From NCBI GenBank assembly GCA_016125185.1, contig WGMG01000001.1:372001-436000 (forward strand): a stretch of DNA of 64,000 nucleotides. Direction: 5' to 3'. The notes beneath the pieces were generated by a model that was not told the origin of the DNA, did no database searches, and was given only the letters and a program-made list of their open reading frames with translations. The DNA is from Armatimonadota bacterium. GTDB lineage: Bacteria > Armatimonadota > Fimbriimonadia > Fimbriimonadales > Fimbriimonadaceae. The position numbers and the translations under genes are program-made. The first letter of the stretch is position 1, and every line of letters starts with the position of its first letter. Below are positions 1,853 to 35,652 of the stretch, piece after piece.

Positions 1853-2200
1853 CTACTCGGGCTTCTTGCCCGTCTCGCAAGTTACCACCGAGTGAATTCC
1901 GCCACGGGCGCTGAAGTTTCCAACCACGCGCATCCAGCGCGGCTTACACGCCGCCGCCAGTTCGTCCAGCATCTGGTTGATCACCGCTTCGTAGAAAATG
2001 CCCTTGTTGCGAAAGTCGAGGTAGTAGTACTTCAGGCTCTTGAGCTCGATGCACGTCTCGTCAGGGATGTATTCCAGCTCGATGGTGGCAAAGTCCGGCA
2101 GCCCCGTCTTGGGGCAAACGCTCGTGAACTCGGGGTTCACGTGCTTGATCGTGTAGTTGCGGTTCGGATTCGGATTCGGAAAAGTCTCCAGCTCGGCCAT
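1853..2200 (-). CDS. queF: NADPH-dependent 7-cyano-7-deazaguanine reductase (QueF)
   Basis: Reduces preQ0 to preQ1 in queuosine tRNA-modification biosynthesis, in the cytoplasm. At 115 residues it is the short unimodular type. The catalytic Cys29 sits in SVCPKTGLPDF with the conserved Asp36, and the substrate loop ELKSLKYY lies near 52-59. It begins 14 nt after the stop of the secreted-protein gene at 2215 and may be co-transcribed with it; a TAAACT hexamer 11 nt before the ATG could give it its own promoter. No other queuosine genes are nearby and I saw no preQ1 riboswitch in the 14-nt gap. Confidence 0.93.
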   Translation of the reverse strand: MAELETFPNPNPNRNYTIKHVNPEFTSVCPKTGLPDFATIELEYIPDETCIELKSLKYYYLDFRNKGIFYEAVINQMLDELAAACKPRWMRVVGNFSARGGIHSVVTCETGKKPE

Positions 2201-2214
2201 ATCGAACCCATAGT

Positions 2215-4035
2215 TTACTTTGCCACATCGATGAACTGGCTGACCGACTCCGCATCGCTGAATCCGAATCCGATGGTGTACTGATTTCCGGGATATCGCT
2301 TTGGCACCGCCTTTTGAATGACTTGATTGCCCTCACGAAGTTCTCGGCCATAGTCAATCAGGCCGTCAAAGAAGTGAGAGTGGAGCGTGACTCTCATAGA
2401 CCTAAGCTCACTCGGCGCGACACCGGCAGAAACAATTGTCTTTGCCATGCCATAACTGCAAGAACCGGATTCCGAAAGCATCTTTACGATCGTGTCAATG
2501 GCTGCCTGTTGCTGGTCGGTTCCAAGGGTTGCAATGGCGAGGCCATCATCGGCCGAGGCGGCCGCCATTTGGTTGGAAGTTAGCTGGGACAAGAACCGTA
2601 GGGCATCATACGAGTTAGCAACGCCAAAGGCATCAAAGGTTGTTAGAGGATAATCCACTTCTTCATTGGTGAGTTGATCTTCACGAAAACTGCCTGCGAC
2701 CTGAATGAAGAAATTGAGGTCGTGGGGTGTATTCACCGACTCGAATTTTGACCATTGCGCTTCCGAGGCTTCGTGCCGTCGATGAGTCCAATACCGAAAG
2801 TTCCTCGCCAAGAAGAAGCCTGAATCTTCCTTGCAAAACGTCTTGTTGTCCTCGACCAACTTTTGAATGTAGGTCTTCGCGTCAGGATAATTGCGATTCA
2901 GTTGCACCCAATTCGTGGTGCAACTCCGATCGGCTTGAGCGACAACCGGGATTCCTGTCGCAAGGTGAAACCACCGCAAATGATCCCCCAATCTTCGCTT
3001 CATCGAGGACCAAGGAGAGGGCCAAATCTTTGTACTCGCGTCGAGCTTCTGTGGAAATTTCTCGGCGACGTCCTGCACGTGGGTCCAAGGTTCTAAGTCT
3101 TCGTAGAAAGGAAGTTTCTTGAGTGTCCCGGGGACGCCCTCATTAAAGGTCTTTGCCGAGAACACTCCATTCGTATGGCTGGCACCGGGATTGCCCTTCA
3201 TGCCAGGATAGACTCCGTAGGAATTGAAGCTTGCCCGGATGTCGCCGGTAGCCGGACGATATCGCACAATCTCAAAGACCAAAGGCGTCACCTTTCGAGG
3301 ATTCCCATCGGCGTCCGTAATGGTGAAGTAGGAGGATTGGTCTTGATCAGCTGGATCGAGTTTGAGCCCCGGGCCGGGCATGGTGCTTGCGACCAACGGT
3401 TCTCCTTTCCAAAATTGTTCTTTCTGGGCATCGCTGAGCCGCAAAAAGACTCTTCCAAGGCCAGTCATGTAGCCATCGCCGATCGTTCGAGATGCAGCCA
3501 AGTACTGCCTGTTGGCCTCCTCCAACCTTGTGGGATCATTGGCCTTCGTGGCTGCTTCAAGTTCGTTCTCGAAAGGATCCAGGAGCTCGAACTTCCTTCT
3601 CGGTGGGAGCAATCCAAATCGCTTATCAGAATTTGGATCAGGCGGCGTATTCTTGGCGGCATATTCGCAAGCTGAGATCAGCGCTTCGGAGTATTTCTTC
3701 GACAATTCATCTTCAGCCAAGTTGAAGACCTTTTCGTGGTTTGCCTTCGGGATGTCCATTTCCAGCCGGTATCCGTTACCGTCTTGCACCCACTGACAAT
3801 CAAGGACTTTGGCGACCTCGTCCATAACCGATGAAAGCGACTTCTTTTCAACAAAAAGGTCCACCTTTAGGTCCGAAATATTGCGATTGACCTTAAGCGG
3901 GACGTGGGACATCGCCGAGAATTCGTTGCACACGTCCGTGATCTGCACCAGGCTCTTATCGAGATCAACAACCTCTTTCAATCGACTATCGGTAAGAATG
4001 GATGCCTGAACGAGAAGAGCGATAGTCACGATCAT
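2215..4035 (-). CDS. Secreted protein of unknown family, tandem copy A
   Basis: A 606-residue protein with a short N-terminal hydrophobic segment (MIVTIALLVQAS). Residues ~28-95 resemble the STN domain (short N-terminal fold of secretins and TonB receptors): LKVDLFVEKKSL then VLDCQWV and a YRLEMD strand. A second conserved block near 335-375 has WPSPW, RRLGDHLRWFH and GIPVVAQADR. There is no predicted barrel or secretin domain. It is paralogous to the genes at 4137 and 6553 and nearest in sequence to the 4137 copy. It appears less GC-rich than its siblings. Likely exported to the periplasm or cell surface; function unknown. Confidence 0.8.
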   Translation of the reverse strand: MIVTIALLVQASILTDSRLKEVVDLDKSLVQITDVCNEFSAMSHVPLKVNRNISDLKVDLFVEKKSLSSVMDEVAKVLDCQWVQDGNGYRLEMDIPKANHEKVFNLAEDELSKKYSEALISACEYAAKNTPPDPNSDKRFGLLPPRRKFELLDPFENELEAATKANDPTRLEEANRQYLAASRTIGDGYMTGLGRVFLRLSDAQKEQFWKGEPLVASTMPGPGLKLDPADQDQSSYFTITDADGNPRKVTPLVFEIVRYRPATGDIRASFNSYGVYPGMKGNPGASHTNGVFSAKTFNEGVPGTLKKLPFYEDLEPWTHVQDVAEKFPQKLDASTKIWPSPWSSMKRRLGDHLRWFHLATGIPVVAQADRSCTTNWVQLNRNYPDAKTYIQKLVEDNKTFCKEDSGFFLARNFRYWTHRRHEASEAQWSKFESVNTPHDLNFFIQVAGSFREDQLTNEEVDYPLTTFDAFGVANSYDALRFLSQLTSNQMAAASADDGLAIATLGTDQQQAAIDTIVKMLSESGSCSYGMAKTIVSAGVAPSELRSMRVTLHSHFFDGLIDYGRELREGNQVIQKAVPKRYPGNQYTIGFGFSDAESVSQFIDVAK

Positions 4036-4136
4036 GATGTTTGATAATCCGGCTGATGCCGAATGCCCGAAATATTATAGGGGAGAAAACAGTACTTGAC
4101 GAAGTCCCGTAACCAGGGCTTTGGGAAAGTTCCGCG

Positions 4137-5975
4137 TTACTTGGGCTTGAAGAGCGTCAGGAACTGGCCGACGGTTTCCTTCTCGCCCAGGGCAAATGTA
4201 AAGCTAATTTGCGTCGCCGGACGCTTTTCCTGGCTCCGGGCTGAAACAACCGCGTCGCCGTCCTTGATTTCGTCTTGGTAGTCCACATAATCCTTGTGCT
4301 CCGTCTCGGTGACCTTAAAGGTCATCTGCCGGAGGGTGGTGGGCTCCAGGCCGCGCGCGATCAGCGCCTTCGCCATCTCGTACGAGCAACTGCCGTTCTC
4401 GACGATGAGATTCAGGACCGTCGACTGCATGAGTTGAATCTGTACGGGGTCGAGCATGTCCGCCGAAAGCCCGCCTTTGTCGCGGGCGGCGTCCCGCTGC
4501 GACTTCGAGAGCGAAGCGTAAAACTTCAGCGAATCGTAGCCCGTGAGCACACGATCCACGCCCACGGTGTTGACCGGATAGCCGATGAACTCGTTGCCCA
4601 TTTGGTCCCTTCGCAACAGACCGGCGATCTTGACCGCCTCATCGAAAGTCATTGGAACCTTGGCGTCGTGATCCTCGATCCGCCGCCAAGCCGACTCGGA
4701 CGCTTCGTAAGCTCGATGCGACCAGAACCGGAAGTTGCGGGCCACCAGATATCCATTGTCAGCGCGGCAATAGGTGTCGGAGTCAGCCATCATCGCCTTC
4801 AGGTATTCGCCCGCGGTTTTGTAACCCCGCTCGAGGTTGATCCAATTCCAGAGGCAGCTTCGGTCCGCTTGGGCCACAACCGGAATGCCGGTGGCGAGGT
4901 GGAACCACCGCAAGTGGTCGCCTAACCGCCGACGATGGTTGGACCACGGCGAGGGCCAGGATTTCGTCTTGGTGTCGATCGACTGAGGAAAGCCTTTCTC
5001 GACCGCGTCCTGGTCCATCCAGGGCTCCAGGTCTTGGTAGAAAGGCATCTTCTTCAGGAAGTCCGCGATGGGCAGGTTGGAAGACGAGCCGCTGAACGGG
5101 CCGCTCATCTTGGCCGACGAAGCGCCCCCGCCGAACTCCTTGGGGTACGCGGCGTAGACGTTCATGCTGCACCGCAGCATGCCGGACGCGGGGTCGTAGC
5201 GGATGATATCGAAAAGGTCCTGTTCCACCCGGTGTTGTTGGCCGTCAGCCCCGATAAAGGAGGCGTTGATGAGGGTGGTGGAGTCGGACCGATACAGTTT
5301 GTATTGGGAACCGGGAAAGGTGCTCGCCGCCACTGGCTCGCCCTTCCAGAATCGGTCCATCGCTGACCGATCCATCTGAAGCAGGATTCGGCCGATGGCC
5401 GTCGTTTGTGGGTTGCCAGCCGCCGCCGACATCGCGGCGTAATCGTCGTAAGCCCGCTGGGTCGCTGCCGCGTCGGTTCCTTTCTGGGCATCTTCGTATG
5501 CCTTTTGGTAGGGGTTTAGAAGGCGATTTCGATCTTCGGCCGACATCATTCCCATGCCGAGGGGCACGGTCTCGTTCGACGTCGGCGTCGCCTTCGCGCA
5601 CTTTTGGTAGATGTTCAGAGCCGCCAAAATCATCTGCCGGTCCTCGTCCTCCTCAGCTTTGATGAAGTTGCGCTCGCGGTTGGTAGTCGGGATATCCATC
5701 TCCAGCCGGTAGCCAGCCTCCGACGGGGTCCATACGCAGTTGAGGGCCTTCGCCACTTTATCGAGCGTTTCTCGCAAAGGGCGGTTCTCGACGAAGACGT
5801 CGACCTTTAGGTCGGCGATGTGGGAATCAACTTTCAGCGTCACGCCCGACTGCTGTGTGGCCTGGGCGCAGAAGTCGGTGATTTGGGTCAGGCTGTCGTC
5901 AAAGTCGCTCTTGGCGGCCAGTCGGTTGTCGGTCAGAAGCGTGGTTTGAAGAAGGACAGTAAGCGCAAGAACCAT
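4137..5975 (-). CDS. Secreted protein of unknown family, tandem copy B
   Basis: A 612-residue paralogue of copy A. The N-terminal hydrophobic segment MVLALTVLLQTTLL is followed by the STN-like unit (LKVDVFVENRPL, ALNCVWT, YRLEMD) at about 30-96. The middle carries a Tyr/Ala-rich helical region. The conserved block with WPSPW, RRLGDHLRWFH and GIPVVAQADR lies near 340-378, and then a GYLVARNFRFWSHR segment. On the minus strand a TACTAT hexamer lies 13 nt before the start. It is separated by 101 nt from copy A. No catalytic motif is recognised; the repeated STN-like architecture suggests a binding or scaffold role (inference). Confidence 0.8.
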   Translation of the reverse strand: MVLALTVLLQTTLLTDNRLAAKSDFDDSLTQITDFCAQATQQSGVTLKVDSHIADLKVDVFVENRPLRETLDKVAKALNCVWTPSEAGYRLEMDIPTTNRERNFIKAEEDEDRQMILAALNIYQKCAKATPTSNETVPLGMGMMSAEDRNRLLNPYQKAYEDAQKGTDAAATQRAYDDYAAMSAAAGNPQTTAIGRILLQMDRSAMDRFWKGEPVAASTFPGSQYKLYRSDSTTLINASFIGADGQQHRVEQDLFDIIRYDPASGMLRCSMNVYAAYPKEFGGGASSAKMSGPFSGSSSNLPIADFLKKMPFYQDLEPWMDQDAVEKGFPQSIDTKTKSWPSPWSNHRRRLGDHLRWFHLATGIPVVAQADRSCLWNWINLERGYKTAGEYLKAMMADSDTYCRADNGYLVARNFRFWSHRAYEASESAWRRIEDHDAKVPMTFDEAVKIAGLLRRDQMGNEFIGYPVNTVGVDRVLTGYDSLKFYASLSKSQRDAARDKGGLSADMLDPVQIQLMQSTVLNLIVENGSCSYEMAKALIARGLEPTTLRQMTFKVTETEHKDYVDYQDEIKDGDAVVSARSQEKRPATQISFTFALGEKETVGQFLTLFKPK

Positions 5976-6003
5976 TCGGTGAACCCCGATAGTACGACGA
6001 CGT

Positions 6004-6510
6004 TCACGCGAAAAATCTTTCAGAAAATCCGTCGGTTCGGATACTTTCGTAATCGTGCCCGCAGTCGGCCGCCCAAGCGCACCAGAAAATCAGCGGCTCG
6101 TCGCCGGTGTTCACGGTCCGATGGGCAAGGGTTCCGTCGATGTGATACGTGACACCCGGCCGCAGTTTGACCGTGGTCGTCTTCCGCTCATGGTCCATCA
6201 GAACCACCAGCCCTTGGCCCGACACGACGAGGATCAGTTCGCCGTGAGTCGGCTTGGTGTGCCAGTGGCCACGAGTCATGAAGTACTCGCCGCCGACGGT
6301 GCCGGGGTGGAGCGTGGTCGAACCCCAAAGGATCGCCCCTTCGGTGCCGTCCGGCTTGGAAAAGTAGGTCTCCGTCTCGTACAGGGGCGTGGAAGCCATC
6401 GCCTGCGCCGCGTCTCTATCGCCCCAGTATTCGAGAAGGTCGCCGACGGTCCGCGCGGACCGAGAAACCTCTCCGGTCATTGTCCCGGAGAGGATATCGG
6501 TTGTGATCAT
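6004..6510 (-). CDS. pgi: Cupin-type glucose-6-phosphate isomerase
   Basis: Interconverts glucose 6-phosphate and fructose 6-phosphate in the cytoplasm. This is the metal-dependent cupin class first known from archaea, unrelated to the classical bacterial enzyme. The 168-residue length fits a single cupin barrel. Metal ligands can be read as His82 and His84 in GHWHTK, Glu91 in HGELIL and His130 in LAHRTVN. The gene lies between secreted-protein copies B and C on the same strand, 28 nt upstream of B and 42 nt downstream of C. It has its own -10-like TAGAGT 7 nt before the ATG. Nothing links it functionally to the secreted family. Confidence 0.8.
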   Translation of the reverse strand: MITTDILSGTMTGEVSRSARTVGDLLEYWGDRDAAQAMASTPLYETETYFSKPDGTEGAILWGSTTLHPGTVGGEYFMTRGHWHTKPTHGELILVVSGQGLVVLMDHERKTTTVKLRPGVTYHIDGTLAHRTVNTGDEPLIFWCAWAADCGHDYESIRTDGFSERFFA

Positions 6511-6517
6511 GACAGAT

Positions 6518-6523
6518 ACTCTA
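6518..6523 (-). promoter_or_regulatory. Candidate -10 box for cupin isomerase
   Basis: TAGAGT on the minus strand, 7 nt before the ATG at 6510, no Shine-Dalgarno between; leaderless arrangement. Confidence 0.4.
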
Positions 6524-6552
6524 CCGCGCTCTGCGGCTCAGATTTGCGCGGC

Positions 6553-8328
6553 TCAGATCTGCTCGGACATGAAGGTCACGACCTTCTCGCCGTCGTATCC
6601 GAACTCGTAGTGAATCGTTCCGCAGACCTTTTCATTGCCGGGATCGACGACAATCTGCTCGCCGAGGTCCTGCACCGTCACCGGTTGGTTGATCACCTTC
6701 ATCTTCATGGTGCTCATGTGAAATCGCATCGCGTTCAATGACTGCGAATCGTAGCCGTCATAGATGAACGAATCCATGAGCGACTCGCTGACGAACCCTT
6801 GGTCCCCAATACCGTTGACGATTGCGGCTTCAAAAAGGCCCTGTTGCCGTTGGCTCAGTCGATTGAACGACAGTCCGCCTGGCCTGTTGGCCTGGCCAAG
6901 TTCACCATCATCCAGCGTAGCCACCAACTGAAGGGCGGGGAATGTCTGCGCGAATTCACGCCGAGAGAATTGCACGACCACTCCATCACGATCCTGCACC
7001 AGCATGGCTTGCAACGGATTCAATTTCGAGCTAAACGCGACGTATCGATCCATCTTCGACTCGTTGCCTCGCTGTGGGTTTTCGACGATGGCGTAAGTGG
7101 ATTCTGGGATTTCGTTCAGCTCTTTCCGCCAATAAATTCCATCGCGCACGAGCAGGAAGTCGCCGCTTCGGTGGGCATAACCCTTGCAGGCGGCAAGTAA
7201 CGAGGTGAGGTACTGCCCCTCCGTCGCCGAATGGCGATTCTGCCTGACGAAGGGATGCACGGTTCGGTCGGCCATCGCGACCACAGGTACGCCACTCATC
7301 CGGTGGAACCAGCGCAGGTGGTCGCCTAGTCGGTACCGCCCGTTGTCCCACGGCGAATCGAAGTTTGCCTTCTCGGCGCTTTTCTCGTCGATCTTGGTTG
7401 GGAACATGTCGTCGAGCGCGGAAAATTGATCCCACCGCTTCAGACTCGCGGCGAAGCTGAGCCCATCGAGCTCCTTCGGCATGTCGTCGAACGGATAGTG
7501 CCCAGGTGGCTCTCCAGAAATGATCCGCTGGTTCGGCGTGAATGTAAAGTCTTTCTTGCCGATGCGCTTGGTCGCTGGATCGACGCAGGTGAAGAGCACG
7601 TACTTACCGTCCACATTGGGCCGCGATGGGTCGAGGTCGCCCAGGGAGAACGCGAATTTGGCTTTGGTGACCGACGACACAATGAACGGCAGACCGGCCT
7701 TGTAGGCCCGAATGTCGCCCTCCGACATTTGCGAGAATAATCGGGCGAGCTCCAGGTTGGCGGTGCCCGATGCGATCTCTTCGAGCGCACGAACGCGGAT
7801 ATCGAGCGGTTCCAGCTCCGCGTCCGAGGCGTTGTCCGCCCGGGCTTTGGCCAGTTGGGCCTGAGCCTTTTTGAGGTCGCCTTTGTAGAGATTGAATCGG
7901 TCGGGATCGTTGATCCGCTCGTCGGAAGGCGGCACGATTCGCGCAATCTCCCGGTACACCGTAATCATGCGATCGAGGTTTTGGGTCGCGAGCTTGTCTT
8001 CGGCCGAAACGTACTGCCGCGCCTCAGCGTCGGCTTGGTCGTCGCCGACCAGCTGGTAGCCGTCGGCGCCGCGAACCCACTGAAGGTTGCACGCCTCGGC
8101 GACCTTCGCCAGGGTCTGGTTCAGGGGCTCGTCATCGACGAAGACGTCGATCTTGAGGTCCTTGATGGACGGGGAACAGGAAAACTGGATGCCCGATGCC
8201 TTTTCGGCGTTCTGAAGCAGACTCCGAATCGGCATCAGCGGTGCATCGATACTGGTCGGCTTGGTCAACCGAACATCGCTCGAAATGGAGTCCTGCGTCG
8301 CGAGGAGGATCAGCGAAAGGAGGCTCAT
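6553..8328 (-). CDS. Secreted protein of unknown family, tandem copy C
   Basis: A 591-residue, more divergent paralogue of copies A and B. The N-terminus (MSLLSLILLATQDS) is a short export signal. The STN-like unit lies at about 30-95 (LKIDVFVDDEPL, ACNLQWV, YQLVGDD). The middle block is kept in altered form: SPW, YRLGDHLRWFH and GVPVVAMADR near 325-362, followed by GDFLLVRDGIYWRKE. The change from IPVVAQADR to VPVVAMADR and loss of the WP before SPW separate it from A and B. A TATGAT box lies 9 nt before the ATG. It is first of the three in transcription order. Function unknown. Confidence 0.8.
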   Translation of the reverse strand: MSLLSLILLATQDSISSDVRLTKPTSIDAPLMPIRSLLQNAEKASGIQFSCSPSIKDLKIDVFVDDEPLNQTLAKVAEACNLQWVRGADGYQLVGDDQADAEARQYVSAEDKLATQNLDRMITVYREIARIVPPSDERINDPDRFNLYKGDLKKAQAQLAKARADNASDAELEPLDIRVRALEEIASGTANLELARLFSQMSEGDIRAYKAGLPFIVSSVTKAKFAFSLGDLDPSRPNVDGKYVLFTCVDPATKRIGKKDFTFTPNQRIISGEPPGHYPFDDMPKELDGLSFAASLKRWDQFSALDDMFPTKIDEKSAEKANFDSPWDNGRYRLGDHLRWFHRMSGVPVVAMADRTVHPFVRQNRHSATEGQYLTSLLAACKGYAHRSGDFLLVRDGIYWRKELNEIPESTYAIVENPQRGNESKMDRYVAFSSKLNPLQAMLVQDRDGVVVQFSRREFAQTFPALQLVATLDDGELGQANRPGGLSFNRLSQRQQGLFEAAIVNGIGDQGFVSESLMDSFIYDGYDSQSLNAMRFHMSTMKMKVINQPVTVQDLGEQIVVDPGNEKVCGTIHYEFGYDGEKVVTFMSEQI

Positions 8329-8400: not shown

Positions 8401-9825
8401 TTACATCTTGTGGATGGCGTGTCCGGCGGCATCCTCGAACGCTTCGATGATTGCCTCGGCCATCGTCGGGTGAGCGTGAATCACGGTCTCCATCGACTCC
8501 AGCGTCGCCTCGTGGACGAGGGCGACCACGCCTTCGTGCAGAAGGTCAGAGACGTGTCCGCCGACCATGTGCAGGCCGAGGACTTCGCCGTACTTCTTCT
8601 CGGCGACGACCTTCACAAAGCCTTCGGTCTCGTTGGCGGCCATCGCCTTGGCGAAGATCGCGAATCGCGAACGGCCCACGACCACGTCGTAGCCCTTCGA
8701 CTTGGCTTCCGACTCGCTCATACCCACGCTGGCAACCTCCGGCGAGGTGTACACCACGTTCGGCACATGTCGATAGTCGACCGTCTTGGGTGAATCCGGC
8801 TTCAAGATGTTGTTGACGGCAGCCAGACCTTCCTGCTGAGCCACGTGGGCAAGCTGGATTCGGCCCGTCACGTCGCCGATCGCATAGATGTTCGGCACGT
8901 GGGTGCGGAGCGTGTCGTCGACGATCTCGACGCCGCGTCGGTGGAGCTTGACACCGATCCCTTCGAGGTTCATGCCCTCGATGTTCGCCTTTCGGCCTAC
9001 GCCGAGCAGGACCACTTGGGTCTCGATGACTTCGGTCTCGGTGCCCTTCTTGATGTGCGCCTTCCAGCCCTTCTTGGTCTTCTCGACCTTGTCGATGGTG
9101 GCGCCGGTGCGAACGTCGATGCCCTGTCGGCTGAGTTGTTTGCCCAACTCGACGCCGAGGTCTTCGTCCATGATGTTGACCAGCGTCGGCATCATTTCGA
9201 CCAGCGTGACCTTGGAGCCGAGGCCGTTGAAAACGTAGGAGAATTCGCAACCGACTGCGCCGCCGCCGAGGACGACCATGCTGTCCGGCACGAACGGAGC
9301 GGAAACCGCGTCATCCGACGTCCAAACGCCGTCTTCGCGGCCGCCTTCCAGACCCGGGACCGGCAGGTGGACTACCGATGAGCCGGTGGCGAGAATGAAA
9401 TTCTTGCCTCGGTACTTGCTCTCGGTTCCGTCCTTGGCCGTCACCGAAATCGTGTTGGCGTCGATGAACTTGGCGAAGCCTTCGACGTGCTTCACGCCGC
9501 GCTTCTTGAACAGCATGCCCACGCCGCCGCGCTCGGCCAGTACGATCTTTTCCTTGCGCTTCATGAAGGCGTCGAAATCCATCTCGGCCTTGTCGATCTT
9601 CTTCAGGCCGAAGCTCTCTGCCTTCTTCGCCTTGTTGAGCATCTCGACGCTGGCGATCATCGCTTTGGAAGGCACGCACCCGACGTTCAGACAGGTTCCG
9701 CCGAGGTACTCCTTCTCAACACAAATGACCGAAGCCCCCATCTGGGCCGCTCGGATTGCCGCGTAATAGCCGCCGGGGCCGGCGCCAATCACGATAATGT
9801 CTGCGTCGAATTGTTCATTTGCCAT
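8401..9825 (-). CDS. lpd: Dihydrolipoamide dehydrogenase (E3)
   Basis: Flavoprotein that reoxidises the lipoyl groups of 2-oxoacid dehydrogenase or glycine-cleavage complexes using NAD+. From the chosen start it has 474 residues, the usual length. The FAD-binding GAGPGG lies at 14-19, the redox disulfide GGTCLNVGC gives Cys45 and Cys50, and the C-terminal catalytic pair is in HAHPTMAE. The frame continues to an ATG at 9966, which would add 47 low-complexity residues; I prefer 9825 because the fold starts there and AGGAG lies 12 nt upstream. No E1 or E2 genes are nearby, so its partner complex is unknown. Confidence 0.93.
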   Translation of the reverse strand: MANEQFDADIIVIGAGPGGYYAAIRAAQMGASVICVEKEYLGGTCLNVGCVPSKAMIASVEMLNKAKKAESFGLKKIDKAEMDFDAFMKRKEKIVLAERGGVGMLFKKRGVKHVEGFAKFIDANTISVTAKDGTESKYRGKNFILATGSSVVHLPVPGLEGGREDGVWTSDDAVSAPFVPDSMVVLGGGAVGCEFSYVFNGLGSKVTLVEMMPTLVNIMDEDLGVELGKQLSRQGIDVRTGATIDKVEKTKKGWKAHIKKGTETEVIETQVVLLGVGRKANIEGMNLEGIGVKLHRRGVEIVDDTLRTHVPNIYAIGDVTGRIQLAHVAQQEGLAAVNNILKPDSPKTVDYRHVPNVVYTSPEVASVGMSESEAKSKGYDVVVGRSRFAIFAKAMAANETEGFVKVVAEKKYGEVLGLHMVGGHVSDLLHEGVVALVHEATLESMETVIHAHPTMAEAIIEAFEDAAGHAIHKM

Positions 9826-10045
9826 AGTTTGCGTTTGCTCCTGCTCTACTGGGATGCCCGAGATCGCCTCGATAATGGAGGGTGCCGGCATCGGCGTTGA
9901 GACGGCCGGACCGTTTGTCAGCTCGCTCGCTGTGTTTTGGGGTGATTCGTCTGTTGGATCACTCATCGAGCACCGAGAGGATGAACTTCGAGTTTACCAG
10001 GTGGCGGGAATGCCCGAATCTGCAAAAAAGCGACAAAAGGGGGTT

Positions 10046-27915: not shown

Positions 27916-28650
27916 ATGAACCGAGGAATCTACACCGGGGCACGGGGAATGATGACCACCACGCAGTGGATGGACGTGATTTCCAACAACCTTGCCAACT
28001 CTGGAACCGACGGATACAAGGCCGACACGCTGGCGTTTACCGACGTCATGATGAAGAACCTTTACGCCAACGGCGGAAAGGGCGTCTATCTCGGAAGCAT
28101 CGGCAACGGCCCCGCCGCAACCGCCAACTCCATCGACCGAAGCGTCGGCACGATCCGCACGACGGGCAATGCGCTCGATGTGGCTCTCCGCACGCCGCAG
28201 GGCATGTTTGCGGTTCAGATGAACGGCCAAACCTACTACACCCGCAACGGCTCGTTCAGCCTCGACTCCGCTGGCCACTTGGTCACCAACCAGGGCCTTC
28301 CGGTTCTGGACACCAAAGGCTCCCCGATCACGATCACCGGCAAGGGCAAGGTGATGATCGACGAGCAGGGCCTGGTTCACCAGGGCGATAACGTCGTGGC
28401 CCAGATCGGCATCTACGAATCCGACTTTGCAAAGGCTGGACTCAATCTCTGGACTGCCGGCACGCAGACCCCTCAGCCGGTCGCAAACCCGGAGCTCGCA
28501 ACTAACTCGCTGGAAGCCAGCAACGTCGAGCCCATCCAGGCGATGGTGGACCTCATCAAGGTCCAGCGCTCCTTTGAAGAATCTCAGCGGTCGATCCAAA
28601 CCCAGGACGACATGACCGGAAAGCTCTTCGAAATCTTGAATCGACACTAA
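27916..28650 (+). CDS. flgF: Flagellar rod protein, FlgF-like
   Basis: Axial protein of the proximal rod, secreted by the flagellar export apparatus. The 244-residue protein has the N-terminal signature MDVISNNLANSGTDGYK and the C-terminal heptad helix QAMVDLIKVQRSFEESQRSI, which pack as coiled coils in the rod core, with a middle FlgG-type fold (MFAVQMNGQTYYTRNGSFSL). It opens the operon, just before flgG. Several FlgE/F/G paralogues are alike; I call it FlgF from its length and position. Gram-positive FlhO/FlhP-type naming is an alternative. Confidence 0.85.
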   Translation: MNRGIYTGARGMMTTTQWMDVISNNLANSGTDGYKADTLAFTDVMMKNLYANGGKGVYLGSIGNGPAATANSIDRSVGTIRTTGNALDVALRTPQGMFAVQMNGQTYYTRNGSFSLDSAGHLVTNQGLPVLDTKGSPITITGKGKVMIDEQGLVHQGDNVVAQIGIYESDFAKAGLNLWTAGTQTPQPVANPELATNSLEASNVEPIQAMVDLIKVQRSFEESQRSIQTQDDMTGKLFEILNRH

Positions 28651-28729
28651 TCCCACATCGGGACCCGACCGGCCAAGCAGGATGCGAGGCTATGAATCAG
28701 CACAGGAAGGCAAACCATGAAAAGCCGCC

Positions 28730-29518
28730 ATGTTAAGATCGCTCAATACTTCGGCAACCGGAATGGTTGCGCAACAATTTAACCTGGACGTTATCTCGAA
28801 CAACCTCGCGAACGTCAACACGACTGGTTTCAAACACCAGCGGGCCGAGTTTCACGACTTGGTGTATCAGACGGTTCAATCCGCTGGTACCTCGGTCGGT
28901 CAGAACTTCAAAACGCCGGGTGGCGTTCAGTTCGGTCTTGGTTCGATGGTTTCCGCCACCGCCAACGACCTCTCGCAGGGCGCATCCCTCAGCACCGGTA
29001 ACCCGCTCGACCTCATGATCGTCGGCGAAGGTTACTTCCGCGTGCTCAAGCCGGACGGCAGTTTCGGATACACCCGCGATGGCAGTTTCAAGAAGGACGC
29101 GACCGGTCTGCTGGTAAACAGCAACGGCTACCCGCTCGTCCCCCAGATCACGATTCCCGAGGGAGCGACTCAGGTGAATATTGGTCAGGACGGCACGGTC
29201 GAGGCCATGATTCCGGGCAACTCGACGCCGACACGGCTCGATCAGATTACTTTGGCGATGTTCGCCAACCCCGCCGGTCTCACCCGAGCTGGCGAGAACC
29301 TGTGGGTGGAGAGTGCGGCCAGCGGCGCGCCAAACCTCATTGCCCCCGGCACCGATGGAGCGGGTACGGTCTCCGCCGGGTATCTGGAAGGATCCAACGT
29401 TTCGGTTGTCGAAGAGATGGTTCGAATGATCACTGCGCAACGCGCCTATGAGATCAACTCGAAAGCCATCCAGACCTCAGACGACATGCTGTCGATTCTG
29501 AACACGCTGAAGAGGTAA
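28730..29518 (+). CDS. flgG: Flagellar distal rod protein FlgG
   Basis: Distal rod subunit that passes through the P and L rings. The 262-residue protein, the standard length, carries LDVISNNLANVNTTGFK near the N-terminus and MVRMITAQRAYEINSKAIQ at the C-terminus. The middle domain (YFRVLKPDGSFGYTRDGSF, then GENLW) is the template for the extra module found at the front of the next gene. A 3-nt gap separates the stop from that gene's ATG, so expression is coupled. Confidence 0.93.
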   Translation: MLRSLNTSATGMVAQQFNLDVISNNLANVNTTGFKHQRAEFHDLVYQTVQSAGTSVGQNFKTPGGVQFGLGSMVSATANDLSQGASLSTGNPLDLMIVGEGYFRVLKPDGSFGYTRDGSFKKDATGLLVNSNGYPLVPQITIPEGATQVNIGQDGTVEAMIPGNSTPTRLDQITLAMFANPAGLTRAGENLWVESAASGAPNLIAPGTDGAGTVSAGYLEGSNVSVVEEMVRMITAQRAYEINSKAIQTSDDMLSILNTLKR

Positions 29519-29521
29519 GCC

Positions 29522-30712
29522 ATGATCGGTAGCATTCTCGCACTCATGGTTGGGGGAACGGTCCCCACTGTCACCGTTCGAATCGAAGGCGACGGCTTCT
29601 TCCGCTTCGCCAAAGACAATCAGATGTTTTACGGCCGCGTGGCCCAGCTTTCGGCCACGCCGCAGGGCCTCATGGCCAAAGATGGCTCCTTATTGGTGCC
29701 CCGCCTGGTGGCGCCGGAAGGCACGACCAAGCTGGAAGTCAGCATGGACGGCAACATCACCGCGGTTCTGGCTAACGGAAGCAAGCACCTCGGCCGCTTT
29801 GTCATCGCCATTTTCGAAACCCCGCCGAAGTTCAATCACGTGGGCAACTACGTGACCACCGACTCCCGCCCGACGCTGACCAGCCCGGGTGAATGGATCG
29901 CCGGTGTGATCCGAACGAACGGCACCGCAACAACGGCTCCGATCGACACCAAGACGACCGAGGGAAGCACGACGACGACCACGCCGAAAACGGCTGGTAA
30001 CAACTCCGCGAGCGAAAAGTTTGTGCCGGGAACGACCGAGATCAAGGTCAATCTTCACTCGGAGATCACGTCCGAGCACATCTTGCTCGGCGATATCGCC
30101 ACGATCGAAGGCGACCCGGAAGTCAAAGAGAAGCTGAGCGTGGTCGACTTTGGTCGAGCCCCGATCTACGGCGCAAAGCGGGGCCTCACCGTCCTGCACG
30201 TCCGGGCCAACATTTTGGCCGCCAAGATCGATACCCGAAACATCAAGATCATCTGCCCCGAAGGTGCAACGGTCGAGCGCAAGAGCCAAAAGGTCGAGCC
30301 GACTGCGATCTCCGATGCCGTCGCCAAGGCGATCAAGGTGAAGTTCGGCTTCGAGACCCAGCTTCAAGAGAAGAATCGGCTGACGACCCTCAGCGTTCCC
30401 GATGGAGAGGTGACGATTAGCGTCTCCCAGCTTAACCTGAACAACACCGAAATTAGCGGTATGGTCGATGTCCTCGTGGATGGCAAGTCCGCAGGCACCG
30501 TCCGCATCGGCTACGACCTGCCCGCCCTTTCGATGGTCAAGCGCGGCGATGTGGTTCGCCTTCGCCTGATCTCCAATTTTGCCACCGTCGAGGTCAACGC
30601 CAAGGCGACGACCAACGGCTATCTCGGCCAGAGCATAACCGTCGAAACCGACAACGGCACGACCCACACCGGCACCCTCATCGGCTCCGGAATCGTGGAG
30701 GTGAAACTATGA
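29522..30712 (+). CDS. flgA: FlgG-like module fused to FlgA (P-ring chaperone)
   Basis: A 396-residue protein of two parts. Residues ~15-125 align with the middle domain of the upstream FlgG: EGDGFFRFAKDNQMFYGRVA corresponds to EGYFRVLKPDGSFGYTRDGS, and later LLVPRLVAPEGTTKLEVSMDG to PLVPQITIPEGATQVNIGQDG. A Thr-rich linker (GSTTTTTPKT) follows. Residues ~170-396 match FlgA, the periplasmic chaperone for FlgI, with the SAF-type domain and a terminal GYLGQSITV block. The N-terminus has only a weak hydrophobic start (MIGSILALMVGG). Ordinary FlgA proteins are 130-250 residues and lack the first module. The stop overlaps flgH (ATGA). Confidence 0.85.
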   Translation: MIGSILALMVGGTVPTVTVRIEGDGFFRFAKDNQMFYGRVAQLSATPQGLMAKDGSLLVPRLVAPEGTTKLEVSMDGNITAVLANGSKHLGRFVIAIFETPPKFNHVGNYVTTDSRPTLTSPGEWIAGVIRTNGTATTAPIDTKTTEGSTTTTTPKTAGNNSASEKFVPGTTEIKVNLHSEITSEHILLGDIATIEGDPEVKEKLSVVDFGRAPIYGAKRGLTVLHVRANILAAKIDTRNIKIICPEGATVERKSQKVEPTAISDAVAKAIKVKFGFETQLQEKNRLTTLSVPDGEVTISVSQLNLNNTEISGMVDVLVDGKSAGTVRIGYDLPALSMVKRGDVVRLRLISNFATVEVNAKATTNGYLGQSITVETDNGTTHTGTLIGSGIVEVKL

Positions 30713-31326
30713 AACTGACGTCCATCTTCGCCCTCGCACTGACTTCGGTGGCCTTCGGCCAGCAGGTAGATTCGCAGGACAACTTCGGCTCTCTGACGCC
30801 GAAGAGGTACAACTCGCCGTTCCTGGCTCGAACCGCCCGGCACGTGGGCGATCCGCTGACGGTCATCATCAGCGAGTCGAACATCTCCTCGTACCAGTCG
30901 AACATGCAGAACAACAAGAAGGAGACCGTCACCAACGGCCCGAACAGCGTTCCGCTCGTCGATTGGCTGAAGGTTGGCCTGCTTTCGTCGCTGACCGGCA
31001 GTTCCAGCTCCAGCACGGATCAACAGTTCCAAACCACGGGGCAGAACTCTCAACGCGGCACCATGACGGCCAAGGTTTCCGTCCTCATCAAGCAGATTCT
31101 TCCGAACGGCACGCTGGTGGTCGAAGGGACCCGAGCCGTGAAGTTCGGTCGCGAGACTCAGCATCTAACCCTCAGCGGCATCTGCCGAGTTGATGACATC
31201 CGAACGGACAATACGCTTCTCAGCGAGAACCTCGCCAATGCCGAAATCAAGAGTGAAGGCATCGGAGCGATCTACAAGAAGCAGCGACAAGGCTTCATCT
31301 CGAAGCTCTTGGGGTGGTTGTTCTAA
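30709..31326 (+). CDS. flgH: Flagellar L-ring protein FlgH, without lipobox
   Basis: Forms the outer-membrane L ring around the distal rod, so the cell has an outer membrane. Length is 205 residues. The family core is visible: RHVGDPLTVIISESN, GTMTAKVSVLIKQILPNGTL, VEGTR and TLSGICRVDDI. The N-terminus MKLTSIFALALTSVAFGQQ is a signal peptide but has no Cys at the cleavage site, whereas enterobacterial FlgH is a lipoprotein. Anchoring must therefore differ. The next gene starts directly after the stop. Confidence 0.93.
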   Translation: MKLTSIFALALTSVAFGQQVDSQDNFGSLTPKRYNSPFLARTARHVGDPLTVIISESNISSYQSNMQNNKKETVTNGPNSVPLVDWLKVGLLSSLTGSSSSSTDQQFQTTGQNSQRGTMTAKVSVLIKQILPNGTLVVEGTRAVKFGRETQHLTLSGICRVDDIRTDNTLLSENLANAEIKSEGIGAIYKKQRQGFISKLLGWLF

Positions 31327-32520
31327 ATGAAACTCCTTTCCATCGCAACGCTTTTGCTGACTGCGAGCATGGTTTTTGCCCAGGCTGGACCTCCTTCCGG
31401 TGGCGGCGACACCAAGCCGACACGCATCACGGACGAGATGTCCCGCCGCATGTCCAACATGCGACAGGCCGAAAGCAACGGCATCAGCGTCCGCATTAAG
31501 GACATCGCCCGGTTCCGCGGCATCCGCTCCAACTCCCTCATGGGTATTGGTGTAGTGGTCGGCCTTAAGGGCACTGGCGACACGCGAAAGAACCCGCAGA
31601 GTGCGGCGGCCATCGCCAACTATATGAAGTCGATGGGGCAATCCGTCGATCCGACGCTCATCGAACCGAAGAACTGCGCTCTCGTATTTGTCCGCGCCGA
31701 GCTTCCCCCGTTCGCCACGAACGGCCAAGAACTTGACCTCACGGTCGCATCGGCTGGTGACGCGCTCAGCTTGCAGGGAGGACTCCTCCTTCGCACCGAG
31801 CTGTACGCCGTCGGAGACAACGAAACGGTTTACGCCATCGGCGAAGGCTCCATCAGCATCGGTGGGTACGGCGCTTCGTCGGGTGGCAGCAGCAAGTCGG
31901 TTGGCTTCCTCACCGCGGGCCGAGTCCCCAGCGGCGGCGTGGTCGAGCAAGGCGCGCCGACGAAACTGGTCTACAGCGGCAAGATGTACCTCGAACTGAT
32001 GGATGCCGACCTCACGACGGCTAACCGAGTTCAGGACGAAATCAACAAGAAGTATCCCGAGTTCAACGCCATGGCGGAGAACGGCGGCACCATCGGCGTT
32101 TCGCTCCCGACCACTATGTCTCCGGTTCAGGCGATGTCCAAGCTGGAAGAGCTGAACGTCCTGGTCGACAATGCGGCCGTGGTCGTCATTAACGAAAAGA
32201 CCGGCGCGATCGCCATCGGCGGAAACGTCCGCATCGCTCCCGTCGCCATCGCCAGCGGCTCCATCAGCGTCAAGATCGAGGAATCGACGAGTGTGTCCCA
32301 GCCGAATCCGTTCGCTCAGGGCACGACCACGCCGGTCACGAACCAGAAGGTCTCGGCCGATCAAGGCGAAGCCGACATTGCGGTCATGGCTCCGAATACG
32401 ACCGTCGCCGACCTGGCCCGCATCTTCCAAGAGTTGCGTCTCAAGTCCAGCGACATCATCAATATCCTTCAGATCCTGCGTCAGCAGGGCGCCCTCAAGG
32501 CAAGGCTGGTGATCCAGTGA
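31327..32520 (+). CDS. flgI: Flagellar P-ring protein FlgI
   Basis: Periplasmic P-ring subunit, 397 residues including a signal peptide (MKLLSIATLLLTASMVFAQ). Family markers include ISVRIKDIARFRGIRSNSL, GIGVVVGLKGTGD and VVVINEKTGAIAIGGNVRI. A Gly-Ser-rich insertion (GGYGASSGGSSKS) in the middle is typical. FlgA, two genes upstream, should chaperone it. The stop overlaps the GTG start of flgJ. Confidence 0.95.
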   Translation: MKLLSIATLLLTASMVFAQAGPPSGGGDTKPTRITDEMSRRMSNMRQAESNGISVRIKDIARFRGIRSNSLMGIGVVVGLKGTGDTRKNPQSAAAIANYMKSMGQSVDPTLIEPKNCALVFVRAELPPFATNGQELDLTVASAGDALSLQGGLLLRTELYAVGDNETVYAIGEGSISIGGYGASSGGSSKSVGFLTAGRVPSGGVVEQGAPTKLVYSGKMYLELMDADLTTANRVQDEINKKYPEFNAMAENGGTIGVSLPTTMSPVQAMSKLEELNVLVDNAAVVVINEKTGAIAIGGNVRIAPVAIASGSISVKIEESTSVSQPNPFAQGTTTPVTNQKVSADQGEADIAVMAPNTTVADLARIFQELRLKSSDIINILQILRQQGALKARLVIQ

Positions 32521-32849
32521 TAAACGGAAGCCTCCAGGCTCTCAAGGCGGGTTCGCTCGTCGCCGAAGCCAAAGACGACCTCACGAAGCTGAAGAAGGCG
32601 ACCGACGGTCTGGAAGCCTTCATGTTCAAATCCCTGCTCCAGAGCATGGGTGGCAAGGATGGCCTGTTCAGTTCGAAAATGCCCGGTGGCGATATCTACC
32701 GGGACATGTTCGAAACGAACCTGTCCGACGTGCTCGCCGCCCGCGGAACGCTGAACATCAGCAAGACGATTTACAACAAGGTTGTGCCGGTAGCCCTGGC
32801 TCAAGCCCAACAACGACTGAAAGAATCAACGATCGAGAAAAAAGTATGA
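32517..32849 (+). CDS. flgJ: Flagellar rod-cap protein FlgJ, N-terminal domain only
   Basis: Rod scaffold/cap of 110 residues. It starts with GTG, overlapping the flgI stop. The motif GLEAFMFKSLLQSM and the helix MFETNLSDVLAARGTLNIS are those of the FlgJ rod-binding domain. The muramidase domain found in enterobacterial FlgJ is missing, so peptidoglycan cutting must be done by another enzyme. The stop overlaps the next ATG. Confidence 0.88.
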   Translation: MINGSLQALKAGSLVAEAKDDLTKLKKATDGLEAFMFKSLLQSMGGKDGLFSSKMPGGDIYRDMFETNLSDVLAARGTLNISKTIYNKVVPVALAQAQQRLKESTIEKKV

Positions 32850-33325
32850 AATCCCGACAACTCCTCAATCTGTGGACCGAATGGTTGTCCACCTCCGAGA
32901 CGCTGCTGCGGGCTCTGCATGAGCAGACCGTAGCGGTGACCCTCCGCGACGTACCGCGTGTCGAGAAGCTGCAACCGGAGCTCGACGAGCTGATGGAAAG
33001 CATCCGAACCGTCGACACCCTGGCATTGGCTGAAGCAAAAAGGCTGGCCGAAGAGCTTGGAGCCCCGCTCCAGAGCCTTCGAGGTCTGGTCTCGGTTCTC
33101 GATAAGACCGAGGCGGCTCAAGTCCAACTCACCGCGAACAAAGTCCTATCGGCCTCGCAAAACATCCAGGATGTGGTGCACAAAAACCGAAAATTATTTG
33201 AGAGCGAAATGACCTACATCAATGGAACGCTCACCTTGATCGCTAAGGCCGCCGTCATCGGCAAAGGTCCGTATCGAGGTCGCAAGTCTGGTTCCACGTC
33301 GGTGTTGGTCGACGCCGCTGCATAA
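32846..33325 (+). CDS. flgN: FlgN-like export chaperone
   Basis: Cytoplasmic chaperone for the junction proteins FlgK and FlgL, encoded just downstream. The 159-residue, mostly helical protein has heptad-like leucines (LLNLWTEWLSTSETLLRALH, PLQSLRGLVSVLDKTEAAQV). Identity rests on helical character, size and position between flgJ and flgK, because FlgN is poorly conserved. The start overlaps flgJ by 4 nt, and flgK follows after 12 nt containing AGAGGAGAG. Confidence 0.8.
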   Translation: MKSRQLLNLWTEWLSTSETLLRALHEQTVAVTLRDVPRVEKLQPELDELMESIRTVDTLALAEAKRLAEELGAPLQSLRGLVSVLDKTEAAQVQLTANKVLSASQNIQDVVHKNRKLFESEMTYINGTLTLIAKAAVIGKGPYRGRKSGSTSVLVDAAA

Positions 33326-33337
33326 GAGGAGAGAAGA

Positions 33338-34717
33338 ATGTCTAGTCCGTTTCAAGGCATCGAAACCGCAAGCCGAGCGCTTCGGGCATTCCAGCGCAGT
33401 CTGGATACGACCGGCCACAATATCGCCAACGTCAACTCGACGGGATATTCGCGGCAGACGGTCAGCCTTGCTGCGACTCCGGCTCTAACCGAGTTCGGTG
33501 GCCACGAGTACAGCATCGGCACCGGCGTCAACATTTCGACGATTGCCCGCATTCGCGACTCAATGCTGGAACAGCGACGCCAAACCGCGTTTTCCCAGCA
33601 GGGGCAGGCCGAAAGCTCGCTCGGCAACCTTGAAAAGGTTCAGTCGATGTTCTTGGACGTCCAGGGCAGCGGCATCAGCGACTCGCTCAGCACGTTTTTC
33701 AATTCGTGGTCGGCCCTTGGGTCGGATCCCACGAACGCCGGTAACCTTCTGGCTGTCCAGTCGGCCGGTCGCGACCTCGCCAGTAAGATCAGCTCAACGT
33801 ACAGTCAGTTGAAGGCGCAGGCGACCGACCAAGGCACGCAGGCGTCCCAGACCATCGGCGATATCCAGAACCTGGCCAACAAGATCGCCGACCTCAATGC
33901 CGGTATCCGCAAGGACTTGGCCCGAGGCGGTTCGCCCAACGACATGATGGACGAACGCGACCAAGCCGTCGCCGATCTCTCCAAGCTCGTGAACATCACG
34001 ACCAACACCGCCAGCGATGGCGCGATCGTGGTTTCCGTCGGCGGGTTGTCGCTCGTGGACCAAGTGGGAGCCAAGACCTTCCCTACGACCTTCGATGCCG
34101 CATCGGGAACGGTGTCGGATTCGGTGGGAAGCTGGCCGATCAGCGGTGGCAAGCTGAAGGGCATTTTCGACGCAACCAACCAGGTTAACGGCTATATGGG
34201 CCAGTTGGACAACCTCGCCAACACGCTCCGAACTCAGGTGAATGCCGTCCACATGGCGGGCTATACCGCCAATGGTTCGACTGGCGTCGCCTTCTTCAAC
34301 GATTCGGTGCCGCAAACCGGCGCCATCGACTTCGCGCTCTCTTCGGCGGTCGATTCCAATCCGCAGAACATCGTCGTGGGCACCACGTCAGCCGCGTCCG
34401 ATGGTTCCGCCGCCCTCGCTCTTTCGAATATGCGGGACACCAAGGTCGCTGGCCTCGGCAACCGGACGATGGGCGACTACTACACCAGCCTCATCACGAC
34501 GGTGGGACGCGACGTCAGCGTCGCTCAGAACAACGTCGATACCGCTAACGCGCTTAGCGAACAGGTGGAGGCGCAGGTGCAGGATGTCAGCGGCGTCAAC
34601 CTCGACGACGAGATGTCCGACATGCTGAAGTTCCAACGAAGCTATCAGGCCTCGGCGAAGGTCCTGAGCACGATGGATCAGGTCATGGGTGACCTGATGA
34701 ATATGTTGAACCGCTAA
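33338..34717 (+). CDS. flgK: Hook-associated protein 1 FlgK
   Basis: First hook-filament junction protein, exported through the flagellar channel. The N-terminus has LDTTGHNIANVNSTGYSRQ and the C-terminus VNLDDEMSDMLKFQRSYQAS, both hallmarks of FlgK. At 459 residues it is on the short side, with a compact variable domain. An AGAGGAGAG Shine-Dalgarno sequence lies just upstream. Confidence 0.95.
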   Translation: MSSPFQGIETASRALRAFQRSLDTTGHNIANVNSTGYSRQTVSLAATPALTEFGGHEYSIGTGVNISTIARIRDSMLEQRRQTAFSQQGQAESSLGNLEKVQSMFLDVQGSGISDSLSTFFNSWSALGSDPTNAGNLLAVQSAGRDLASKISSTYSQLKAQATDQGTQASQTIGDIQNLANKIADLNAGIRKDLARGGSPNDMMDERDQAVADLSKLVNITTNTASDGAIVVSVGGLSLVDQVGAKTFPTTFDAASGTVSDSVGSWPISGGKLKGIFDATNQVNGYMGQLDNLANTLRTQVNAVHMAGYTANGSTGVAFFNDSVPQTGAIDFALSSAVDSNPQNIVVGTTSAASDGSAALALSNMRDTKVAGLGNRTMGDYYTSLITTVGRDVSVAQNNVDTANALSEQVEAQVQDVSGVNLDDEMSDMLKFQRSYQASAKVLSTMDQVMGDLMNMLNR

Positions 34718-34761
34718 AGGTTAAGGAATCCAGGAACCGATATTAATACTAGGAGACAAGC

Positions 34762-35652
34762 ATGAACCGAGTTAGCACCTTCTATCAGTTCAGCACGTTG
34801 CAGAGTCAAGTCGCCCGAGCGGGCGAGGCGTACTACGACGCGCAGAAAAAGGTCTCGACCGGCAAGCGAATCAACGTTCTCGGCGATGACCCGACCGGCT
34901 TCGGTTCGGTCGTCTCGATGAAAGGCGTGAAGGCTGGGCTGACCCAGTACTCTGCCAACCTCGATCGGGCGAACAACTGGTACTCCACCACGGAGAACAC
35001 CATGTCGGAGGTCACCACTCTGATGAACCGCGCCAACGCGTTGGCCGTCAGTGGCGCAACCGCGACCACCGGCCAGACCGAGCGCCAGGCAATGGCTTCG
35101 GAAGTCACGTCGATCCGCGATCGACTGCTCCAGCTCGCCAACGCCAAGGACGGAAGCGGGAACTACATTTTCGCTGGCACTGCCACATCCACAACCCCGT
35201 TCTCCCTGAACGGCAATACCATCGCCTACAACGGCGATACCGGCAAAGTGAAGGTCGAAGCGGCCCCGGGGCAGACGATGGATCTGTCTCTTCCTGGGAC
35301 CGATACGTTCTTCCAATCGGCTTACGACCACCTGACGACGATGATCGATGCAATGAACAACAACGACTCATCGACGCTCAGCAACACCTCGCTCACCGAT
35401 GTCCAGGCTGACCTACAAGTGGTCAACATGGCACGGGGCGAAATCGGCAACCGCGTTCGCACGCTGGACGACTATCAGTCGGACCATTCGCGACGCATCG
35501 ACGAACTCACAAAAGGCGTCTCCGATATCGAAGACGTCGATTTGGCACAGGCGATTACGGATTATCAGAGTGCCCAAACGGCTTATCAAGCCGCTCTCCA
35601 GATGGTTAGCCAAGGATCGAAGCTAAGCCTAATGGACTACATCTCAGGCTAA
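34762..35652 (+). CDS. flgL: Hook-associated protein 3 FlgL
   Basis: Second junction protein, between FlgK and the filament. The 296-residue flagellin-like protein starts MNRVSTFYQFSTLQSQ, contains KKVSTGKRINVLGDDPTGF and ends in the helix YQAALQMVSQGSKLSLMDYI. An AGGAGA site precedes the ATG by 7 nt. The stop shares one base with the fliW start. No flagellin gene lies in the window. Confidence 0.94.
   Translation: MNRVSTFYQFSTLQSQVARAGEAYYDAQKKVSTGKRINVLGDDPTGFGSVVSMKGVKAGLTQYSANLDRANNWYSTTENTMSEVTTLMNRANALAVSGATATTGQTERQAMASEVTSIRDRLLQLANAKDGSGNYIFAGTATSTTPFSLNGNTIAYNGDTGKVKVEAAPGQTMDLSLPGTDTFFQSAYDHLTTMIDAMNNNDSSTLSNTSLTDVQADLQVVNMARGEIGNRVRTLDDYQSDHSRRIDELTKGVSDIEDVDLAQAITDYQSAQTAYQAALQMVSQGSKLSLMDYISG

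Follow-up and report, generated by a model that had tools for sequence, protein, structure and literature searches.

To our knowledge, STN domains have been described almost exclusively as docking modules at the N-terminus of channels and receptors. The fold occurs as the N0 domain of the secretins PilQ, GspD, InvG and EscC, in the NTSD of PupB and in the STN subdomain of PupR and FecR, which have a cytoplasmic anti-sigma domain, one transmembrane helix and a C-terminal STN domain. DotD and Xanthomonas VirB7 (X-VirB7) are exported to the envelope and carry an STN/N0 domain without having their own channel; both are small lipoproteins with one N0 domain, form part of T4SS core complexes and are encoded in that gene context (matched structures 3ady and 6gyb; PMC2951367, PMC3093366). 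X-VirB7 oligomerizes via its N0 domain (PMC3093366), and the STN-bearing domain of PupR binds the STN domain of PupB (PMC7186176). A survey of more than 8,000 STN proteins is reported to have found the domain always N-terminal to other domains, with PupR as the exception (PMC7186176).

The window analysed here (the whole stretch of 64,000 nucleotides, from an Armatimonadota bacterium) encodes three related proteins, A, B and C, each with two predicted folds of the secretin N0 type (STN1 and STN2); PilQ N0 is the top match in both sequence-profile and Foldseek comparisons. Unlike secretins, A–C have no secretin domain or barrel, carry their two N0 folds ∼250 residues apart and are apparently soluble and exported. 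They share the STN fold with PupB, PupR and FecR (STN2 matches 9cuv and 4m0h) but lack the plug, barrel, transmembrane helix and anti-sigma domain, and one of their STN domains is internal; whereas the STN domain of FecR and PupR is C-terminal, STN1 is N-terminal and follows a signal-like stretch. As exported envelope proteins they resemble DotD and X-VirB7, from which they differ in their length of ∼600 residues, the absence of a lipobox, the presence of two STN domains and a gene context of lpd and queF rather than a T4SS core.

Gene content of the locus

The sequence-only reading had described a tandem triplication of three consecutive minus-strand genes encoding 591–612 residues. The open reading frames bear out the genes, their strand and their sizes; they are not strictly consecutive, however, because a PF06560 gene lies between B and C.

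1853..2200, minus strand: queF-like gene, bordering the conserved slot on its downstream side (PF14489, E = 3.1e-31; 14 bp from copy A)
2215..4035, minus strand: copy A, predicted exported double-STN protein of 606 residues (open reading frame; family profile 673.7 bits)
4137..5975, minus strand: copy B, predicted exported double-STN protein of 612 residues (open reading frame; AlphaFold pLDDT 83.2, pTM 0.80)
6004..6510, minus strand: cupin/archaeal-type phosphoglucose isomerase gene, 168 residues, between B and C (PF06560, E = 9.9e-21)
6553..8328, minus strand: copy C, predicted exported double-STN protein of 591 residues, ancient paralogue of A and B (open reading frame; C clade 100/99 with other lpd-side genes)
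8401..9966, minus strand: lpd-like (dihydrolipoyl dehydrogenase type) gene, bordering the conserved slot on its upstream side (named from its sequence, not from a profile search)

The same-strand gaps in the order lpd, C, phosphoglucose isomerase, B, A and queF are 72, 42, 28, 101 and 14 bp, consistent with a single operon; promoter and terminator scans gave results at chance level only. The phosphoglucose isomerase gene is present as a clean gene at the same position in the locus L037 (76% identity), and a sugar ABC transporter, read from the sequence, adjoins the locus. Copy A (2215–4035) has a GC content of 0.51 and a GC3 of 0.59, compared with a GC3 of 0.75–0.83 in B, C, lpd, queF and the cupin gene, and may be relaxed or of different history. 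Further along the window, a flagellar cluster (27916–35652) contains FlgF/G-like genes, FlgI, FlgK and flagellin, one open reading frame of which (29522–30712) matches both the FlgE/F/G D1 domain and the FlgA chaperone domain.

A and B are 40% identical and C is 25–28% identical to each of them, with homology over the full length; the genome tblastn E-values are 1.9e-152 for B with A and 1.9e-26 for B with C. Judged by these comparisons, the kinship of the three is far above chance. The motifs singled out earlier recur as described: RLGDHLRWFH is invariant across all three, while WPSPW and GIPVVAQADR are found in A and B and are both altered in C (FDSPW and GVPVVAMADR). The short export signal that had been attributed to all three is seen as a hydrophobic N-terminus in A, B and C, without a charged n-region, and a hydrophobic N-terminus is also present in 35 of the 38 rows of the relative set. 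A second transmembrane-like stretch is absent from A–C and from 35 of the 38 rows. From their N-termini, A–C are likely to be exported; a cysteine lipobox was looked for in this region of A–C and none was found.

STN folds and internal repeats

The N-terminal unit had been read as STN-like and the central block as a possible second repeat of the same kind, with structure prediction and comparison with structure databases proposed as the check; both readings are supported, the STN fold being found twice. The segments are as follows, those of A and C being mapped from B.

3757..3972, minus strand: STN1 of copy A, residues 22–93
5697..5912, minus strand: STN1 of copy B, residues 22–93 (model topology; Foldseek match to PilQ N0 with probability 1.00; profile comparison (HH) E = 9.7e-11)
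8044..8259, minus strand: STN1 of copy C, residues 24–95 (weak PF07660 match)
2797..3003, minus strand: STN2 (central block) of copy A, residues 345–413
4731..4937, minus strand: STN2 of copy B, residues 347–415 (profile comparison (HH) E = 1.8e-6; 4m0h match of the model without the N-terminal part)
7138..7341, minus strand: STN2 of copy C, residues 330–397

The reference set for profile comparison consisted of 30 Armatimonadota STN domains recognized by Pfam, against which the N-terminal block gave E = 9.7e-11 and the central block E = 1.8e-6, compared with 0.65 and 0.15 for two control blocks. A whole-family profile produced exactly two significant matches with this set, at residues 31–98 and 350–415. 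The best PDB sequence match of a profile of 19 relatives was the PilQ N-domain (E = 0.011), and single-sequence matches to PF07660 fell below the cut-off (15 bits and E = 0.116 for copy C). At the sequence level, the STN domains of these proteins are detectable by profile–profile comparison only.

The AlphaFold model of copy B, built from nine sequences (pLDDT 83.2, pTM 0.80), is mostly helical with short sheets. In this model STN1 comprises a strand (22–31), a helix (32–43), two strands (46–49 and 57–66), a second helix (67–77) and two further strands (80–85 and 88–93), and the central block comprises a helix (351–362), a strand (366–370), a helix (388–399) and two strands (401–406 and 409–414), with a spacing of elements nearly equal to that of STN1. 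The two β–α–β motifs by which the STN fold is recognized were found at both sites, in the models and in the structure matches. Residues 307–612 of copy B were also folded alone (pLDDT 77), which stops the N-terminal domain from masking the central one. Structure matches of STN1 (Foldseek and VIA) include PilQ N0, which ranks top in Foldseek, MxiD/InvG, EscC and DotD. For STN2 in the truncated model, the VIA matches are 4m0h, the STN domain of a putative anti-sigma factor (Z = 7.0 over 65 residues, 2.1 Å), EscC with Z = 6.3, and 9cuv, the signalling domain of PupB, with Z = 5.3. For structure matches with Z below 8 the tool warns of a possible common arrangement, and such matches are insufficient alone; since they agree here with independent sequence profiles, the identification of two STN/secretin-N0 folds, one in the N-terminal unit and one in the central block, is supported.

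The likeness between the two halves of the protein extends beyond the STN domains. Residues 16–300 and 338–612 align over 173 columns with a score of 37.5, compared with a maximum of 18.5 in 40 column shuffles (0/40). The STN pair alone gives a significant alignment (0/60 shuffles), as does the helix-turn-helix pair alone (E = 2.5e-6, 0/60 shuffles), the members of which align with each other:

5322..5411, minus strand: first helix-turn-helix of copy B, residues 189–218, of LGRxLxxMSxxxxxxFWKGE type
4452..4538, minus strand: second helix-turn-helix of copy B, residues 480–508

Because the halves align with each other, each protein is best read as an internal duplication of a unit in the order STN, helical linker, helix-turn-helix and then strand, the two units being followed by a C-terminal domain. 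This duplication of the whole unit is new here, the sequence-only reading having suggested a second STN-like repeat only. The C-terminal end is, in the model, a helix-plus-β domain. A hotdog-like fold was considered for the C-terminal 120 residues, but the matches are weak (9x86 with Z = 7.0 at 4.4 Å; Foldseek E of 0.26 or higher) and no claim is made. The most conserved positions of the family include Trp319, Arg372, Arg413, Trp418, Glu424 and Glu427, which cluster in sequence around STN2.

Family status, distribution and locus history

Scans of A–C against Pfam, NCBIfam, PADLOC and PHROG gave no significant match, in agreement with the earlier statement that no named family with this architecture is known; neither did 19 diverse relatives match Pfam, nor did any of eight longer relatives rise above the cut-off in Pfam and NCBIfam. 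Likewise, no Pfam match to a secretin domain or to the plug or β-barrel of a TonB-dependent receptor or transducer was found in A–C or the 19 members, as had been claimed, and none to a FecR/PupR-type anti-sigma domain in A–C. Of the two outcomes that would have spoken against the sequence-only reading, a match to a characterized family and a structure without the STN fold, neither was obtained. Isolated weak matches, such as those to DUF7759 and, for a single distant member, to TAF1C, were put down to chance. The viral contigs and plasmids searched contain no relative, Foldseek against viral structures gave weak partial matches only (several to phage tail proteins), and no publication on the family emerged from literature searches. 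The locus had been put forward as a candidate undescribed system: on present evidence it represents a new family and a new architecture on a known fold, but not a new kind of system.

A short-motif scan of the genome contigs recovered two loci only, since exact peptide patterns are lost among such fast-diverging relatives, and a profile search was needed. The family profile matches in 218 of 291 Armatimonadota genomes (E ≤ 1e-3), with near full-length matches in families f1, f3, f19, f26 and f28; distant matches are partial, often covering STN1 and the linker only, or two separate segments of one open reading frame. A second STN domain is also present in longer relatives of 720–760 residues (E = 1.7e-4) and is not clear in another group of ∼630 residues. 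The profile search had been suggested as a way to determine spread, with restriction to Armatimonadota as an outcome that would support a new family; when 397 relatives were searched, including at least 106 from outside the phylum, all matches listed (E ≤ 1e-8) fell within Armatimonadota. There are 16 profile matches in the genome of the window and 26 in G017 (one gene can give two), and other family genes, dispersed over housekeeping loci, are often arranged as tandem pairs or triples. On this profile evidence, A–C are members of a large, fast-changing, unnamed, phylum-wide paralogous family. It is invisible to present annotation libraries, and a profile could annotate many Armatimonadota genes that are now termed hypothetical.

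Both lpd and queF are present in all 20 genomes of the genus. The number of family genes between or next to these two varies: there are three in the window genome and in G011, two in G019, G017, G022 and G024 (one of the G024 genes having a single in-frame TGA), one in G018, G007, G020 and G010, and none in several others. The tree places copy C together with lpd-side genes from L036, L037 and L038 (100/99) and A and B with the queF-side genes (100/100), A being sister to the L036 copy (100/100). By this topology the paralogy of copy C and the A/B pair is ancient, and A and B alone look like the product of a later duplication. A simple local triplication is rejected, given the strongly supported split of C from A/B and the membership of the genes in a large phylum-wide family. 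When the window genome is compared with its two nearest relatives, identity is 83–88% for lpd and 89–95% for queF, compared with 39–53% for the best-matching STN proteins, so that the latter change much faster than their neighbours.

The relative of copy C in L036 (3637–5415) is interrupted by a single in-frame TGA (178 + 396 residues) and is either a pseudogene or an assembly error. In some members of the genus, unrelated open reading frames replace the STN genes of the lpd–queF region (L125, 2289–3443; L127, 2262–3314; L126, 1892–3634), a pattern that would suit a place where genes are gained and lost.

Possible function

By analogy with described N0/STN proteins, A–C might function as soluble periplasmic docking or scaffold proteins made of internally duplicated STN units, with co-encoded paralogues acting as hetero-oligomers; this reading is preferred, tentatively and with rather less than even confidence. 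The proteins would sit in the periplasm, where STN1 and STN2 would bind each other or partner proteins of the envelope, as in secretins, X-VirB7 and the PupB–PupR pair, and paralogues from one gene cluster would assemble together. The same-strand gaps of 14–101 bp and the tandem pairs and triples of other members count in its favour, and fast divergence around a conserved core would fit co-evolving interfaces. Counting against it, the neighbours lpd, queF and phosphoglucose isomerase suggest no envelope pathway, no partner protein was identified, and the export signals of A–C are short and without a charged n-region. A wider proposal, in which duplicated STN units constitute a phylum-specific class of envelope scaffolds whose numerous paralogues in each genome diversify rapidly while their loci stay fixed and form a hetero-oligomeric periplasmic apparatus without counterpart in other phyla, is doubtful. 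If true, a whole phylum with two STN domains per protein, no channel and many paralogues would imply that a docking module founded its own class of envelope proteins.

The conserved residues around STN2 (Trp319, Arg372, Arg413, Trp418, Glu424 and Glu427) could form a ligand-binding or catalytic site instead of a docking surface. In that case A–C would be periplasmic enzymes or ligand-binding proteins with STN1 as an accessory, the arginine, tryptophan and glutamate residues in and after STN2 forming the site at which a sugar or a compound of the cell wall is bound or converted, a possibility with which the phosphoglucose isomerase gene inside the locus and the adjoining sugar ABC transporter agree. 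It is nevertheless considered unlikely, given that no enzyme family is matched in Pfam or NCBIfam, that the hotdog-like enzyme matches of the C-terminal domain are weak and that elsewhere STN domains serve docking.

The closest solved matches include 4m0h and the PupB signalling domain, which would suit a role in cell-surface signalling, with A–C as free-standing STN proteins contacting either an anti-sigma factor of the FecR/PupR type or a TonB transducer, but no sigma, anti-sigma or TonB receptor gene was noticed at ∼20 loci read by eye and the proteins have neither a transmembrane helix nor an anti-sigma domain, making such a role improbable. An accessory of a secretin machine (type IV pilus or T2SS-like) that docks on the secretin N-domains might be suggested by the closeness of STN1 to PilQ N0 and by the large STN-bearing open reading frames in the genome, such as a 930-residue frame at C9; this too seems quite unlikely, as no gene for a pilus or for secretion was noticed next to members of the family and the many paralogues (16 matches in this genome and 26 in G017) make a single-machine role for all unlikely. 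Decaying or selfish tandem duplicates without maintained function, to which the fast divergence (39–53% compared with 84–95% identity for neighbours), the copy number of 0 to 3 and the in-frame stop in the L036 gene could point, are very improbable in view of the long intact frames and the conservation of residues and fold across the phylum.

Separately from the double-STN proteins, an Armatimonadota open reading frame of ∼280 residues (L114; G229:C105:4094-4318) contains two directly adjacent STN domains that both score above the Pfam cut-off.
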